Shown piece after piece: positions 10,186 to 61,413 of a stretch of 64,000 bases of DNA (within the stretch, counting starts at the first letter, position 1; each line of letters opens with the position of its first letter). The notes beneath the pieces were generated by a model. It worked only from the letters and a program-made list of their open reading frames with translations. It did not search any database and had not been told where the DNA came from. This stretch comes from Duodenibacillus massiliensis (GTDB lineage: Bacteria; Pseudomonadota; Gammaproteobacteria; Burkholderiales; Burkholderiaceae_F): the NCBI RefSeq assembly GCF_900128485.1, contig NZ_LT635860.1, positions 296,712 through 360,711 of the forward strand, read 5' to 3'. The translations under genes and the position numbers were made by a program.

Positions 10186-12153
10186 CTACACGACCGGAAA
10201 ACTTCCGGCCGGCGCAAACCCGATCGTCATTTCGCAGGGTTTGCAGTGAAAGCGGGCTATAAGCCTGTGACCCTTACTATCGGTGAGATAGAGGGGTTCG
10301 GGTTTCAGATGCCCGCCGTTTCTTTCCTTAAAGCGGGCCTTGGCTTCTTCGTCACCCTTTAAAAGCCGCGGGCATAAGCCGAGCGCCATACGGATGCAGT
10401 GACGGGTGTGCATCAGGTTTTCGGCGTCCTTTAAAACCGCAGGATCCGTTTCGGCCGCAGGGGCAATCGCAATGACGCCCTGCTTTCGCCAGAAGGTTTC
10501 GGCAAAGCTGTTGGCGGCATTGGCGGTAAAGTCAAGCGCCGCGTCCTTAAATGACGCATTGTCAAGGGGCTCATGCCTCAATTGTGGTTTGGGGTGCGAG
10601 GCCGCAACAGCATCCTGCAGTTTGGTGAGTGCCTCACGCCTGAGGTTATTCAAAGCTGAGACCGGCACAAAAGGCAGATGGCTGCCCGCGGGCGCCTCAA
10701 TCTGAACATCCGCTGCATCAAAAAGCGTTCCGCCGGTCTTTTTAAGGGCATTGATGATCCCTGTGCGGGCCCGTTCCTGATCGCGCGCCGCCTGACAGTC
10801 AAAGGGCATCCGGGCTTCACCAGTCGCACCGCAGGCCTGTGCCGTTACCCGCAGTTCTTTGTCAGCAAAGGCAAAAGTAAGCGTGGCGTCAATCGCGCGG
10901 CGGGACGTGTCGCCCGCGAGGGTTTTCGCAAACACATGGTCTTTATTGCGGTTAAGCGTGACGCCGGGCTTTAAGGCCGGGTGTGCAGTGAGCCTATCAC
11001 GGATAAACAGCCGCACAGTCCCGTTTTGAAGATCTTCAGCGCGGTTGACCGCAAGGCCCCGGAGTTCCTCATGGTCGTCAAGGTAAACGAGGCCGTCGCC
11101 GTTAGCGATCTCAGCTTCGGTTTTGATGTCAACCGTATCGGGGTTGTGATTGAGTCTTACCACGCGGCCGATGCGCTCTCCGGTGCTTTTCGGAGTATCG
11201 AGTTCCGCGATCACGCGCCTGCGGCCGTTGACAAAATAATCAGTCTCTCCGCGGTGAAAGGTGCGTGCCGGATCGGGCGTAAAGGTAAAGGTGCAGTGCC
11301 CGAGCGAAGCGGCCCGCCAGGCGTCATTCGTGTGCGCGGCAATGAGTTTGTCGAGCTTTTCGCGGTAGTAGGCCGTGATGTTTTTAACGTAAGCCGCGTC
11401 TTTGAGCCGCCCCTCGATCTTAAAGCTTGTGACACCCGCCTCAATGAGCTTTTCAAGGTTGGCGCTCTGATCGTTATCCATCAGGCTCAGGACATGTTTG
11501 TTTCTCGCGAGAAGCCGGCCCGTGCCATCGTAGACGGTGTAGGGAAGGCGGCATGGTTGCGCGCATTCGCCGCGGTTGGCGGACCTCCCGCACTCGGCGC
11601 AGGAAAGGTAGCAGCGCCCGGAATAGGAAACGCAGAGCGCGCCGTGCACGAAAAACTCGATGCGGGCGCGGTCAACGGCCTCATGGCACCGGGCGACTTC
11701 AGCCAAGGTGAGCTCGCGCGCCAAGACCATCTGGTTAAACCCGAGGCTGTCGAGAAACCGGGCTTTTTCGGGCGTCCGGATATCGCACTGGGTGGAAGCG
11801 TGCAGTTCTACGGGGGGCAGATCCAGTTCCAGGAGCCCCAGATCCTGAATAATGAGCGCATCCACGCCCGCACGGTAAGCGTCCCAGGCAAGCTGCCGGG
11901 CTTCTTCAATTTCGTTTTGAAAAAGGACGGTATTAAGCGTCAGGTAGATTCTCGCGTGGTAATTTTTAGCCCAGGCCGCAAACGACTCAATGGAAGCGAG
12001 GGAATTTCCCGCCGAAGCGCGGGCCCCGAAGCCGGGACCGCCGATATAAACGGCGTCGGCACCATGATCAATCGCGGCACGGGCCACATCCGTGTCGCGC
12101 GCGGGCGCAAGAAGCTCCAGGGGAAAGCGACGGGCGGCGTCAGCTGGAATCAT
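10186..12153 (-). CDS. rlhA: U32-family 23S rRNA hydroxylase RlhA-like
   Basis: A 655-residue member of the U32 peptidase family. In E. coli the homologue RlhA (YdcP) is needed for hydroxylation of 23S rRNA C2501. The N-terminal barrel (PLELLAPARDTDVARAAIDH), the Cys cluster around residues 175-205 (GALCVSYSGRCYLSCAEC, then ECAQPC) and the later collagenase-like domain match in order and length. The start codon ATG 12153 is the first codon after the right end of a deleted IscB element, so the element now separates this gene from the ankyrin gene upstream and supplies its leader (AGGAGGG lies about 39 bases upstream). Confidence 0.88.
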   Translation of the reverse strand: MIPADAARRFPLELLAPARDTDVARAAIDHGADAVYIGGPGFGARASAGNSLASIESFAAWAKNYHARIYLTLNTVLFQNEIEEARQLAWDAYRAGVDALIIQDLGLLELDLPPVELHASTQCDIRTPEKARFLDSLGFNQMVLARELTLAEVARCHEAVDRARIEFFVHGALCVSYSGRCYLSCAECGRSANRGECAQPCRLPYTVYDGTGRLLARNKHVLSLMDNDQSANLEKLIEAGVTSFKIEGRLKDAAYVKNITAYYREKLDKLIAAHTNDAWRAASLGHCTFTFTPDPARTFHRGETDYFVNGRRRVIAELDTPKSTGERIGRVVRLNHNPDTVDIKTEAEIANGDGLVYLDDHEELRGLAVNRAEDLQNGTVRLFIRDRLTAHPALKPGVTLNRNKDHVFAKTLAGDTSRRAIDATLTFAFADKELRVTAQACGATGEARMPFDCQAARDQERARTGIINALKKTGGTLFDAADVQIEAPAGSHLPFVPVSALNNLRREALTKLQDAVAASHPKPQLRHEPLDNASFKDAALDFTANAANSFAETFWRKQGVIAIAPAAETDPAVLKDAENLMHTRHCIRMALGLCPRLLKGDEEAKARFKERNGGHLKPEPLYLTDSKGHRLIARFHCKPCEMTIGFAPAGSFPVV

Positions 12154-12241
12154 AGAAATTCCGCGAGGAAACCCGCGTCTTCAGACGCGGGAGGAATCGC
12201 GGCCCTCCTTTCTTAGTTCAGTTAAAAACATCTTTCGCTTC

Positions 12242-12466
12242 TCAAGAAGCGAAAGTTTCTTGTAGTAAATACCGGCAGAAATCTTTGTACCGTCCAGTCG
12301 GCTGCTTGGTTTCGCCCGTCGGCACCGTCAGTTGAATCACAAAGGGCGTTCGGCGCACAGCCACGGCCTTGCCGGCCCGAAGGAGCTTACGCGCCTTGGG
12401 CGGGGAGCACGGCATGAGCGGTTGCCCGCGCATATTCAACACAAATACTTTCAAAGTGTTCTCCAT
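12242..12466 (-). pseudogene. Truncated iscB (74 codons) of the deleted element
   Basis: The frame begins like the intact IscB (MENTLKVFVLNMRGQPLMPC) with the PLMP motif and the Arg-rich segment. After GETKQP it switches frame at the deletion junction into GRYKDFCRYLLQETFAS. The RuvC and HNH domains are all lost, so nuclease activity is impossible. Whether the 74-residue PLMP-domain peptide is made is unknown. Two residues differ from the intact copy in the shared part (AVAVRR against AVPVHR). Confidence 0.85.
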
Positions 12467-12750
12467 TGACGGATACCTCACGGGCTCCGTCTGCTCGACC
12501 TTGCGGTCGGTGGTGATCCTTCGCCAATGTTGGAAGGGGTTTGTTGTCTGAAGCACCGCTCCTACCTCTCAGAGCTTTTAACTGCAGACCGCAGAGCGCG
12601 GGACTAGGATCGACATCCCGCGGTGCCTGTTTGCGTCCCGTCTTGCGACGGAACGGATTCCCAACCAACGGAGTCCGTCCGAAAACGGACTGAGGCTAGT
12701 CAACCAAGACTTGTTGCCAAGCCTCTGACTTCAGTCAGGGGTAGTTGACC
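12467..12750 (-). ncRNA. omega RNA (HEARO) of the deleted IscB element
   Basis: The 284 nt upstream of the truncated iscB are collinear with, and nearly identical to, the omega RNA of the full element at 20410-20693. Shared hairpins include TCCGTTTTCGGACGGA and CCGTCTTGCGACGG. In IscB systems the guide is the sequence flanking the 5' end of this RNA; here that flank is the 3' end of the ankyrin gene (AGCAACCAGCCCAG). An IscB supplied by the intact copy could in principle use it. Confidence 0.78.
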
Positions 12751-13505
12751 CTGGGCTGGTTGCTGATGGTCGGCAGTTCCGTCTGAAAGGGTCTCGCGGC
12801 GGGCCTCACGCACTTTTCAACCGCAAGGTACTTCGCGAGGTCCTCATCCCCCATGCGGCGTGCGGCGTCCGCAGGCGACTCCCCGCGGTCAGTGCAGAGG
12901 TCCCGGAACGCCCCGTTTTTGAGAAGCTCCATCACAACTTTGCGCGAAGGCATGCGCGCTGCCATATAAAGCGGCGTCACCCCCGCACGGGTCTGAACGT
13001 TGATGTCCGCCCCCTGAGCAATCAGCATCTGCACGAATTCCAGGCGCCCGGCTGCGGCGGCGTAGTGCAGTGCCGTCCAGCCTGAAGGTTTATTGACCTT
13101 TGCGCCGCGCGCTAAAAGCGTGTTAAAGAGCTCTTTGTCGCCCTTAAAGGCTGCAAGCATCAGCGCGTCTTCTCCGAGACGGCTTTGGGTATTGACGTCA
13201 ATGCCGGGCGCTGCAAGGAGCAGCTTAATCACCGGCTGATTATCCATGCGGATCGCGCGCACGAGGGCCGGATCACCGTCCTCCACAAGCGTATTGGGGC
13301 TTACGCCCTGCGCGAGGAGCTCTTTGACAACATCCGCGCGATTTCGTTCGACGGCTCCTGCAAACTCTGCCCAGGTTTCTTCGGGGCCCGCCTTTTTGAC
13401 AGTGACCGCGGCATTTTCCACAATGCCGAATTCATTCACCTTGGGAGCGGAGGAGCAACCCGCAAGAAACGCGACAGCCGCAATGACCAAAAGTGTCTTT
13501 TTCAT
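12735..13505 (-). CDS. Ankyrin-repeat lipoprotein
   Basis: A 256-residue exported protein with a lipoprotein signal (MKKTLLVIAAVAFLAGCSS; lipobox LAGC). At least four ankyrin repeats follow from about residue 45 (for example GDPALVRAIRMDNQPVIKLLLAA, split here by loop residues, and SGWTALHYAAAAGRLEFVQML). It is probably a periplasmic or membrane-anchored interaction module with no recognisable catalytic site. It lies 15 bp after tatD. The last codons and the TGA stop (12735-12737) lie inside the left end of the deleted IscB element, so the C-terminus (RVNYP) is partly element-encoded. Confidence 0.85.
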   Translation of the reverse strand: MKKTLLVIAAVAFLAGCSSAPKVNEFGIVENAAVTVKKAGPEETWAEFAGAVERNRADVVKELLAQGVSPNTLVEDGDPALVRAIRMDNQPVIKLLLAAPGIDVNTQSRLGEDALMLAAFKGDKELFNTLLARGAKVNKPSGWTALHYAAAAGRLEFVQMLIAQGADINVQTRAGVTPLYMAARMPSRKVVMELLKNGAFRDLCTDRGESPADAARRMGDEDLAKYLAVEKCVRPAARPFQTELPTISNQPRVNYP

Positions 13506-20409: not shown

Positions 20410-20693
20410 GGTCAACTACCCCTGACAGAAGTCAGAGGCTTGGCAACAAGTCTTGGTTGACTAGCCTCAGTCCGTTTTCGGACGGACTCCGTTGGTTGGG
20501 AATCCGTTCCGTCGCAAGACGGGACGCAAACAGGCACCGCGGGATGTCGATCCTAGTCCCGCGCTCTGCGGTCTGAGGTTAAAAGCTCTGAGAGGTAGGA
20601 GCGGTGCTTCAGACAACAAACCCCTTCCAACATTGGCGAAGGATCACCACCGACCGCAAGGTCGAGCAGACGGAGCCCGTGAGGTATCCGTCA
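20410..20693 (+). ncRNA. omega RNA (HEARO-type) of the complete IscB element
   Basis: The 284 nt ahead of iscB are GC-rich and highly structured, with stems such as AGTCCGTTTTCGGACGGACT and CCGTCGCAAGACGG. Position and structure match the HEARO/omega RNA of IscB systems, which directs the nuclease. The guide is expected from the left flank, here the cysS 3' end (GGAAAAAGGCGTAAAC for a 16-nt guide). Near identity to the deleted copy over its whole length supports selection or recent origin. Confidence 0.82.
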
Positions 20694-21971
20694 ATGGAGA
20701 ACACTTTGAAAGTTTTTGTGTTGAATATGCGCGGGCAACCGCTCATGCCGTGCTCCCCGCCCAAGGCGCGTAAGCTGCTTCGGGCCGGAAAGGCCGTGCC
20801 TGTGCACCGAACGCCCTTTGTGATTCAACTGACGGTGCCGACGGGCGAAACCAAGCAGCCGATCACCTTGGGTGTGGATGCGGGCTACAAGCACGTCGGC
20901 CTGAGCGCAACGACCGCCAAGGAAGAGTTGTTGGCTTCCGAGGTCGAACTGCGGCAGGACGTGACGGGCTTGCTCTCGGATCGCTTGGCACTTCGCCGCG
21001 CCCGACGCAACCGCAAGACGCGCCACCGCGCACCACGCTTTGCCAACCGCGTTCGATCGAAGCACAAGGGCTGGCTTGCGCCGTCCGTGGAGAACCGCAT
21101 TCAGGCGCACATATCGCGCATTGAAGCGGTTTGCCGAGTGCTTCCGATCACCAAAATCGTGATTGAAACCGCATCCTTCGACATTCAGAAGATCAAGAAT
21201 CCCGAAGTCGAAGGCACGGACTATCTGCAGGGCGAGCAGCTTGGCTTTTGGAACGTGCGCGAATATGTGCTGTTCCGCGACGGTCACGTTTGCCAAGCCT
21301 GCAAAGGCAGATCGAAAGATCTGATTCTCAACGTGCATCACATTGAGAGTCGGAAAACGGGAGGCGACGCGCCGGGCAACCTCATCACGCTGTGCGAGAC
21401 GTGCCACAAGGCGTATCACGCAGGCAAGTTGAAGCAGTTCAGTCCCCGGCGCGGCGCTTCTTTCAGGGCAGAGACTTTCATGGGCATCATGCGTTGGACG
21501 GTGTTCAACCGCCTGCGCGAGCGCCATCCCGAATTGCCTGTCACAAATACCTACGGGTATCTGACCAAACACAAGCGCATCGTCGCGGGCTTGCCGAAGA
21601 CGCATTGCGCGGACGCTTTCTGCATTGCTGGCGTCCTCGACGCAAAACGTCGGGGCGAATACCTGTTTCAGAAACAGACGCGCCGCCACAATCGCCAGAT
21701 CCACAAGCTGACGATTCTCAAAGGCGGTGTGCGCAAGCGCCATCAGGCTCCGTACCTAGTGCACGGCTTCAGGCTCTTTGACAAGGTGCTGTGCAAAGGG
21801 GAAGTCGGCTTTATTTTTGGCAGACGCTCCTCGGGTGCATTCGATGTGCGCCGTCTGAACGGTACAAAGATTTCTGCCGGTATTTCCTACAAGAAACTTT
21901 CGCTTCTTGAGAAGCGAAAGATGTTTTTAACTGAACTGAGAAAGGAGGGCCGCGATTCCTCCCGCGTCTGA
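20694..21971 (+). CDS. iscB: IscB RNA-guided nuclease (RuvC and HNH)
   Basis: A 425-residue relative of Cas9. Order of domains: PLMP motif at 16-19 with the Arg-rich N-terminus, RuvC-I LGVDAGYKHVGLS (Asp62), an Arg-rich bridge helix at 101-119, RuvC-II IVIETASFD (Glu158), HNH at about 195-245 (His215/216, Asn229, with Cys200/203 and Cys234/237 as zinc ligands), and RuvC-III THCADAFCIAG (His304, Asp307). All catalytic residues are present, so the protein should be active. I chose ATG 20694 over GTG 20604, which lies inside the omega RNA. Its stop codon lies in the loop of the right-end hairpin. Confidence 0.93.
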   Translation: MENTLKVFVLNMRGQPLMPCSPPKARKLLRAGKAVPVHRTPFVIQLTVPTGETKQPITLGVDAGYKHVGLSATTAKEELLASEVELRQDVTGLLSDRLALRRARRNRKTRHRAPRFANRVRSKHKGWLAPSVENRIQAHISRIEAVCRVLPITKIVIETASFDIQKIKNPEVEGTDYLQGEQLGFWNVREYVLFRDGHVCQACKGRSKDLILNVHHIESRKTGGDAPGNLITLCETCHKAYHAGKLKQFSPRRGASFRAETFMGIMRWTVFNRLRERHPELPVTNTYGYLTKHKRIVAGLPKTHCADAFCIAGVLDAKRRGEYLFQKQTRRHNRQIHKLTILKGGVRKRHQAPYLVHGFRLFDKVLCKGEVGFIFGRRSSGAFDVRRLNGTKISAGISYKKLSLLEKRKMFLTELRKEGRDSSRV

Positions 21972-21991
21972 AGACGCGGGTTTCCTCGCGG
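21897..21991 (+). repeat. Right-end double hairpin of the IscB element
   Basis: Two structures: a perfect palindrome CTTTCGCTTCT-TG-AGAAGCGAAAG (21897-21920), and a nested hairpin with outer stem CCGCG/CGCGG (21950-21954, 21987-21991), inner stem CCCGCGTC/GACGCGGG, loop TGAA, and opposed single-stranded ATTCCT and TTTCCT. Such subterminal hairpins are what IS200/IS605 transposases bind. The last codons of iscB and its TGA are inside the second hairpin. Confidence 0.8.
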
Positions 21992-21998
21992 AATTTCT

Positions 21999-22610
21999 AT
22001 GATCGTTGCCTGGTGGGCTGATGCGTTAAGAGTCGTCGCGCGCGACCCCGTGCTGCAGAGCGTGATTGAATCCTGCCGCGAAGAGGCGTTGCAGGAAACC
22101 GATGACCTGATGCGCTCGATGGTGCGTGCCGTCTGCGGTCAGCAGGTGCATAACAGCGCCGCTAAAGCCGCGCAGAGCCGGGTGCTTGCGTTTGCGGGCA
22201 ATACGGCAGGCGCAGAACTTGCGCGCGCTCTTGTTGCCGCGGACGAAACGGCGCTCGCGGCGTTGGGGCTCACCAAAACCAAAGTGAAGGCTTTAAGGGC
22301 TCTGGCAGGGGGCTTCATGACCGGGCAACTGACGCCCGAAGCGCTTAACCCCTTAACCGACGCCGAGATTCTTGCAAGGCTCGATGACCTTCCGGGCGTG
22401 GGCCCGTGGACCGCGCACATGGTGATGATTTTCGGGCTTAACCGCCCGGACGTTTTCCCCGTGGACGATTTCGGCGTTAAAAAAGCGGCCGAAGCCCTTT
22501 ACGGGTCGGTTGAAAAGGCCCGGGAGCTCTCAGAAGCTTGGAAACCCTACAGGACGGCCGCCACGTGGCTTTTGTGGCGGAGCCGCACTCAAACGCCCGT
22601 ACAGTACTGA
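21999..22610 (+). CDS. DNA-3-methyladenine glycosylase II-like (HhH-GPD)
   Basis: A 203-residue base-excision repair glycosylase of the AlkA group that removes alkylated bases. The helix-hairpin-helix [17 protein letters not shown] is followed by the catalytic Asp in [12 protein letters not shown]. It lacks the extra N-terminal domain of E. coli AlkA, as is common outside enterics. Its ATG is directly at the right edge of the IscB element. In Burkholderiales a gene of this type usually lies between cysS and accA, matching this layout. Confidence 0.88.
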
Positions 22611-59391: not shown

Positions 59392-59399
59392 GCCCGTCA

Positions 59400-61413
<2,014 letters not shown>

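Follow-up and report, generated by a model that had tools for sequence, protein, structure and literature searches.

A Nuclease-Less IscB Element before a U32 Peptidase Family Gene in Duodenibacillus massiliensis: A Probable Internal Deletion with a Candidate Ribosome-Binding Site at Its Right End

The Locus

The window, which is the whole stretch of DNA analyzed here, comprises 64,000 nt of Duodenibacillus massiliensis (GCF_900128485.1, contig NZ_LT635860.1, positions 296,712-360,711, forward strand). An internally deleted copy of an IscB (ISC/HEARO) element lies between an ankyrin-repeat gene and a U32 peptidase family gene on the minus strand, and an intact copy precedes a DNA repair family gene on the plus strand. 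The features are as follows.

10186-12153, minus strand: U32 peptidase family gene, starting with ATGA exactly at the element boundary
12154-12750, minus strand: internally deleted IscB (ISC/HEARO) copy of 597 bp, running from its left end at 12750 to its right end at 12154
12154-12160, minus strand: 7-nt spacer AATTTCT, followed by the start codon
12161-12202, minus strand: right-end hairpin in the interval from motif to start codon; outer stem CCGCGA/TCGCGG, inner stem CCCGCGTC/GACGCGGG
12204-12212, minus strand: GAAAGGAGG, resembling a Shine-Dalgarno sequence, in the right end of the 597-bp copy
12242-12556, minus strand: remnant frame of 104 aa; only IscB profile positions 1-50 are matched, and the tail that follows is frame-shifted
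12297-12302, minus strand: deletion join, 992 bp lost; GCCG at 12299-12302
12510-12749, minus strand: HEARO/omega RNA (RF02033) of the 597-bp copy; 137.1 bits, gathering score 83
12735-13505, minus strand: ankyrin-repeat gene, upstream; last codons and stop inside the left end of the element
20410-21998, plus strand: intact IscB element, 1589 bp
20411-20650, plus strand: HEARO/omega RNA of the intact element; 137.6 bits
20604-21971, plus strand: IscB nuclease ORF with RRXRR and HNH; NF040563 equivalog
21940-21948, plus strand: right-end GAAAGGAGG motif of the intact element
21999-22610, plus strand: HhH-GPD DNA repair family gene, starting with ATGA at the boundary of the intact element

The original prediction of an exact internal deletion of 992 bp at a shared GCCG was borne out by a collinear alignment of the two copies. 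In the left-end segment, 445 of 453 aligned bases are identical, as are 141 of the last 144 bases in the right-end segment, and a single gap of 992 bases separates the two (597 = 1589 - 992). The join falls at 12298/12297, and the GCCG adjoining it also occurs at the far breakpoint. The 3' end, which had been called identical to that of the intact copy, is 98% identical to it. The HEARO model (RF02033) matches at full length in both copies with scores of 137.1 and 137.6 bits, which upholds the claim of an omega RNA in each, although the match in the deleted copy spans 240 nt and not the 284 that had been proposed. The IscB profile matches the 597-bp copy at positions 1-50 of 314 only, and the profile search found in it no IscB nuclease with RuvC and HNH. 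With an omega RNA above the family threshold and both family ends, the copy belongs with the ISC/IscB elements, but since it carries no nuclease it is classed as a derivative and not as a complete IscB element. The description of a deletion derivative, its nuclease lost but both ends and an intact-looking omega RNA in place, is supported. ATGA stands at its right boundary, and it differs from the consensus by eight substitutions, six of them private.

In the intact copy, homology to IscB begins at codon 37 of the ORF, which makes a true start within the ORF, past 20604, probable. Its IscB is homologous to OgeuIscB in two stretches covering the RuvC and HNH parts, and the best named matches to the IscB of this genome point to kinship with Sutterella and Parasutterella. 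Divergence of iscB between copies of the same genome is raised at element positions 601-900 (window 21010-21309), the mean difference being 9-10% over positions 601-800, 5.6% over 801-900 and about 1-3% elsewhere. The divergent version of this stretch is common to copies c9, c13, and c20 and looks like a mosaic or gene conversion. Elsewhere in the window, a TPP riboswitch (RF00059) was recognized at 59396-59490 on the plus strand (59 bits, gathering score 54.3).

Placement at Start Codons

The genome (2.35 Mb in 22 contigs) contains at least 25 recognizable copies of the element; 40 of 77 and 40 of 64 candidates were scored, so some element pieces may be missing from this count. A full-length iscB frame free of stops is present in 8 of the 25 copies, one of which (c3) has a 5-N gap, and nine matches to Y1 transposases were found. 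Both IscB and TnpA could be supplied in trans by the genome.

ATGA abuts the right end in all 24 copies that have one, and from that ATG an ORF of at least 90 aa runs in 19 of the 24, among them serC, lepB, lolC/E, ntrC, nrdG, and the U32 gene. The SerC, LolC/E, NtrC, and NrdG models align from residue 1-4, as does the Rrf2 model at a locus in a related genome (L274, genome G004); alignment of full-length models from so near their beginning indicates that these ATGs are native starts. Seven element-free orthologs of the U32 gene were read in the genus, of which four (L205, L207, L209, and L210) begin with ATGA and have no element in the preceding 150 nt, while three (L206, L208, and L211) have a different start. 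Six of these seven relatives have the same ankyrin-repeat gene upstream as well, so the 597-bp element sits between two long-standing neighbors, at the start codon.

Further afield, the junction was recognized in 70 of 87 distant loci after duplicates were dropped, with ATGA at 60 and ATGG at 10. An ORF of at least 60 aa begins at 38 of the 70, compared with 120 of 397 control sites (P 1e-4); the distant junctions, like the motif places near the iscB end described below, were called by regular expressions, and some are probably chance. Since no long ORF opens at the ATG in 5 of the 24 copies of this genome or at 32 of the 70 distant junctions, placement at start codons is a bias and not a rule. 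At three loci (L134, L172, and L174), the TGA stop of iscB overlaps the ATGA junction, a layout that could allow translational coupling of iscB to the downstream gene.

The genome also holds nine hairpin-only places, where similarity to the IscB right end (86-100% identity) is limited to its last 50 bp. Eight of them adjoin a Y1 TnpA match, and the ninth, C21:138477, has none listed. These places likewise precede ATGA, but an ORF of at least 90 aa follows at three of nine, versus 19 of 24 for the IscB copies (P 0.02).

A Shine-Dalgarno-Like Motif Bridged by a Predicted Hairpin

All 24 IscB right ends carry GAAAGGAGG together with the hairpin, the motif lying just inside the shared hairpin, whereas none of the nine hairpin-only places has it. 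Inside the outer stem CCGCGA/TCGCGG sits an inner hairpin, and 1 + 7 nt remain unpaired between AGGAGG and ATG. A folded distance of about 8 nt is normal Shine-Dalgarno spacing, and hairpins between a Shine-Dalgarno sequence and its start codon are known from phage T4. The predicted fold thus gives the Shine-Dalgarno motif the spacing to a native start that a portable ribosome-binding site would require.

The arrangement extends beyond this genome. A bridged motif followed by an ORF of at least 50 aa was found at 27 of 72 IscB loci and at 8 of 412 control ORF ends (P 4e-18); with ATG, GTG, or TTG allowed, the figures are 28 of 72 IscB loci and 5 of 305 gene starts. These 72 are the testable members of 80 IscB loci from named bacterial and archaeal genomes of several phyla (eight were dropped for want of room or because the match was partial); as some genomes contribute several, not all are independent. 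At the distant junctions, the motif occurs between -75 and -30 in 58 of 70, versus 13.7% of 10402 control ATG[AG] sites. Near the iscB end it was located in 60 of 74 loci, with 28, 21, and 9 instances in frames 0, 1, and 2 and 2 after the stop. Because all three iscB frames are used, the motif is conserved at the nucleotide and not the protein level, and a protein constraint behind GAAAGGAG is not supported. Nor is a requirement for the motif in transposition, because it is absent from the nine hairpin-only places, eight of which lie beside TnpA. It also persists in elements from which iscB has gone.

Support for the fold itself comes from a consensus over 43 distinct right ends, in which each of nine pairs is represented by at least two pair types, a count made without a shuffled control; L274 and L283 fell outside this set through the filter applied. 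Other fold predictions count against a ribosome-binding site: when whole segments are folded as single sequences, pairing of part of the motif with the spacer preceding ATG is frequent, and a longer fold of the 597-bp copy shortens the outer stem and draws the start codon into a small hairpin, an arrangement that would hinder initiation. We read the IscB right end as a portable ribosome-binding site that would make insertion tolerable and pin the right end during decay.

Plain neutral decay, in which the start-codon position reflects the ATGA target and the loss of gene-breaking insertions while GAAAGGAGG has no translational role, appears unlikely. The breakpoints of the deleted copies are varied and unique, the copies are young, with little divergence outside one stretch, and both features would be expected of decay, as would the 32 distant junctions lacking a long ORF and the partly folded start codon of the 597-bp copy. 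Such decay does not, however, account for the absence of the motif from nine hairpin-only places with similar ends, for its occurrence in each of the three iscB frames and in elements that have lost iscB, for a folded spacing that suits a ribosome-binding site, or for copies at the native starts of serC, lepB, lolC/E, and ntrC.

Deleted Copies and Retention of the Omega RNA

Internal deletion derivatives of transposons are ordinary, and the 597-bp copy has company in its own genome. Six copies have internal deletions free of N (c12, c15, c17, c18, c19, and c22), all with different breakpoints. The losses amount to 216 bp in c12, 459 in c17, 809 in c18, 992 in c19, and about 1100 in c22, while c15 has lost 82 bp and gained an insertion of about 1.27 kb. 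Exact overlap at the join is 9 bp in c12, 6 in c17, 4-5 in c19, and 2 in c15, with none clear in c18. In c22, both ends were kept and the omega RNA was lost.

The original prediction took the 597-bp copy for a MITE-like form that the intact IscB could maintain in trans. It does lack a transposase and keep the ends of its parent, and TnpA elements with a similar 50-bp end, which might mobilize it in trans, are present in the genome. The several copies of one deleted form expected of a MITE did not turn up, and amplification is not supported: scoring 40 of 77 candidates in its own genome gave the 597-bp junction once, and scoring at most nine in each of 60 other genomes did not give it at all. 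Any DNA match to the element was confined to 10 of 61 genomes (the 60 relatives and D. massiliensis itself). For the exact 597-bp form, then, the genomic half of what the prediction had named as its refutation, the lack of a second genome with the same deletion, is what was observed.

Selection for keeping the omega RNA was also considered. A deletion of the same length placed at random between the ends would spare the omega RNA of the 597-bp copy with P 0.58, and at least five of six deleted copies would retain theirs with P 0.41, so retention matches chance and selection for it is not supported. A bias toward in-frame deletions was dropped as well, most multiple-of-three breakpoints being single-N assembly joins.

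The fuller version of the MITE idea, in which IscB from intact copies, guided by the omega RNA of the deleted form, cuts empty sites and thereby keeps the insertion in place or lets it spread, is one we regard as distinctly improbable. It draws on a HEARO score equal to that of the intact copy, on the eight full-length stop-free iscB frames, on homology to OgeuIscB over both nuclease parts, and on nuclease-less omega RNA elements in other species. Against it stand the single occurrence of the deleted form, the retention of omega RNA at chance level, and end-keeping derivatives without a full omega RNA (c22 and, in other genomes, L302 and L307). Genome G004, moreover, contains nuclease-less omega RNA elements and no full IscB that could be found, from which it follows that trans cutting is not needed for persistence. 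The claim of trans action accordingly survives in part: the genome could supply the nuclease, but maintenance by trans cutting is not a necessary assumption. Judged from its sequence, the omega RNA of the 597-bp copy could be loaded by IscB from other copies; nothing indicates selection.

Nuclease-Less Elements in Other Genomes

HEARO matches were found in 21 of 67 genomes of the family, in 14 of them above the cut-off. Of the 46 matches outside D. massiliensis, 41 were examined; three lay too near contig ends, 31 had IscB behind them and seven had no full IscB. This search is biased toward elements that retain the omega RNA. The seven loci are listed below.

L263: decayed element
L265: compact element of 374 bp before a methyltransferase gene
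L274: compact element of 335 bp before an Rrf2 regulator gene
L276: element with a reduced right end; SurE gene downstream
L279: compact element of 329 bp before an Rrf2 regulator gene in a second species
L280: element that has lost its right end; the next gene has its own Shine-Dalgarno sequence (by eye)
L283: compact element of 319 bp before an LptA family gene

In the four compact elements, the right-end hairpin stands directly before the ATGA of the gene, and motif and hairpin are both kept (by eye). A search with the right-end pattern added L302 and L307, the latter in a one-contig genome, which keep their ends and have lost the omega RNA in part or mostly. Independent nuclease-less forms thus occur in other species: nuclease loss is recurrent in the family, and retention of the omega RNA is common without being a rule. 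In G004, a draft of about 50 contigs, HEARO matched three times, at 113.8, 76.1, and 57.6 bits, of which one exceeds the cut-off. Searches of this draft found no Y1 transposase and, in place of a full IscB, no more than a remnant of 36 positions and a single weak match of 33 positions.

Two species carry an omega-RNA-only element before the same Rrf2 gene (L274:965-1299 and L279:1001-1329), and the elements, from G004 and G006, have the same deletion layout. Their omega core is identical at 105 of 123 positions; for comparison, fourfold sites in the Rrf2 gene agree at 41 of 65 (P 6e-4) and the upstream flank at 231 of 297 positions (P 0.05). A domesticated leader, that is, an omega RNA left before a gene that it now regulates, would explain the shared layout and the conservation relative to fourfold sites, but we think it very unlikely as an account of the window copy: it concerns two species only, HEARO scores of 76 and 58 fall below the gathering score of 83, the upstream flank is itself 78% identical, and the evidence is confined to the Rrf2 elements, none of it coming from the window.

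Assembly Joins within Repeat Copies

Ten of the 25 copies (c10, c11, c13, c14, c16, c20, c21, c23, c24, and c25) have single-N breakpoints. Single Ns mark joins within repeat copies, for example at L069:3032, L070:4024, and L072:3642, and give rise to false deletions and duplications. Rearrangements at N joins are not evidence of biology, and repeat-copy structures in this assembly need care. That the 597-bp copy is itself a mis-join within a repeat of about 25 near-identical copies is highly improbable: the N breakpoints do show that repeat joins failed in assembly, but the window contains no N, and none lies at the 597-bp junction, making an assembly join unlikely there, an overlap of 4-5 bp is too short to drive such a join, the copy has its eight substitutions relative to the consensus (six private), and a similar derivative occurs in a one-contig genome (L307).

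Relation to Known Systems

IscB, HEARO, the TnpA ends, and adjacent motifs of the ATGA type are known already. The first HEARO report, by Weinberg in 2009, is said to describe insertion at ATGA/GTGA; ISC elements were reportedly treated by Kapitonov in 2016, and stand-alone omega RNAs by Altae-Tran in 2021. With ISC/IscB elements that carry HEARO (OgeuIscB and its relatives), the 597-bp copy shares the HEARO RNA, the IscB family, the transposon ends and ATGA beside the right end; it differs in having no nuclease, and the reading of the right end as a ribosome-binding site did not appear in the parts of the literature searched. The single-strand transposons of the IS200/IS605 group have TnpA-less derivatives (PATE-like). 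A hairpin end is common to the 597-bp copy and the Y1 TnpA elements of the genome, but, in contrast to PATE-like elements, this copy carries an omega RNA and is not multicopy in its deleted form.

The OMEGA nickase DtIsrB prefers the TAM NTGA and cuts TTGA and ATGA targets, an adjacent motif of the same kind as the ATGA seen here, and a Shine-Dalgarno sequence lies in the last hairpin of its omega RNA (PMC9581776). That sequence serves the frame of IsrB itself, whereas the one in the window copy is at the right end and faces a host gene. IStrons, from related transposon families, likewise make their own insertion harmless, doing so by splicing out of RNA (PMC4227781), while an IscB element would instead supply a ribosome-binding site.

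In the open-licence literature searched, we found neither IscB right ends described as ribosome-binding sites nor IscB insertions at start codons, and likewise no nuclease-less omega RNA elements at start codons.

Interpretation

On the sequence evidence assembled here, the 597-bp copy is probably a one-off product of internal deletion in an IscB element mobilized by a Y1 transposase, with its right end serving as the ribosome-binding site of the downstream gene. Through TnpA, the parent element would have entered 5' of ATGA and separated the U32 gene's own leader from its start codon. The Shine-Dalgarno motif of the right end, brought by the hairpin to about 8 nt from the new ATG, would then supply the ribosome-binding site of the gene, and we propose that the insertion was tolerated for this reason. 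A deletion at short homology may subsequently have taken away most of iscB, leaving the omega RNA in place by chance or recency, whereas the right end would have been kept because the gene now needs it.

A broader proposal, which we put forward tentatively and not without doubt, concerns the family as a whole. IscB transposons may use the start codon ATGA as both target and adjacent motif, inserting between a Shine-Dalgarno sequence and its ATG and providing a replacement Shine-Dalgarno sequence bridged by a hairpin, such that insertions are silent even at indispensable genes. Decay of iscB would then lock the host gene to the element end, and stranded omega RNAs would persist as host-gene leaders, with conservation in some species. 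If true, this would explain how about 25 copies can reside in a 2.35-Mb genome at native starts such as those of serC, lepB, and lolC/E. It would also explain why right ends outlive the nucleases, and would give an origin for nuclease-free omega RNAs, in elements related to the transposons from which Cas9 arose.
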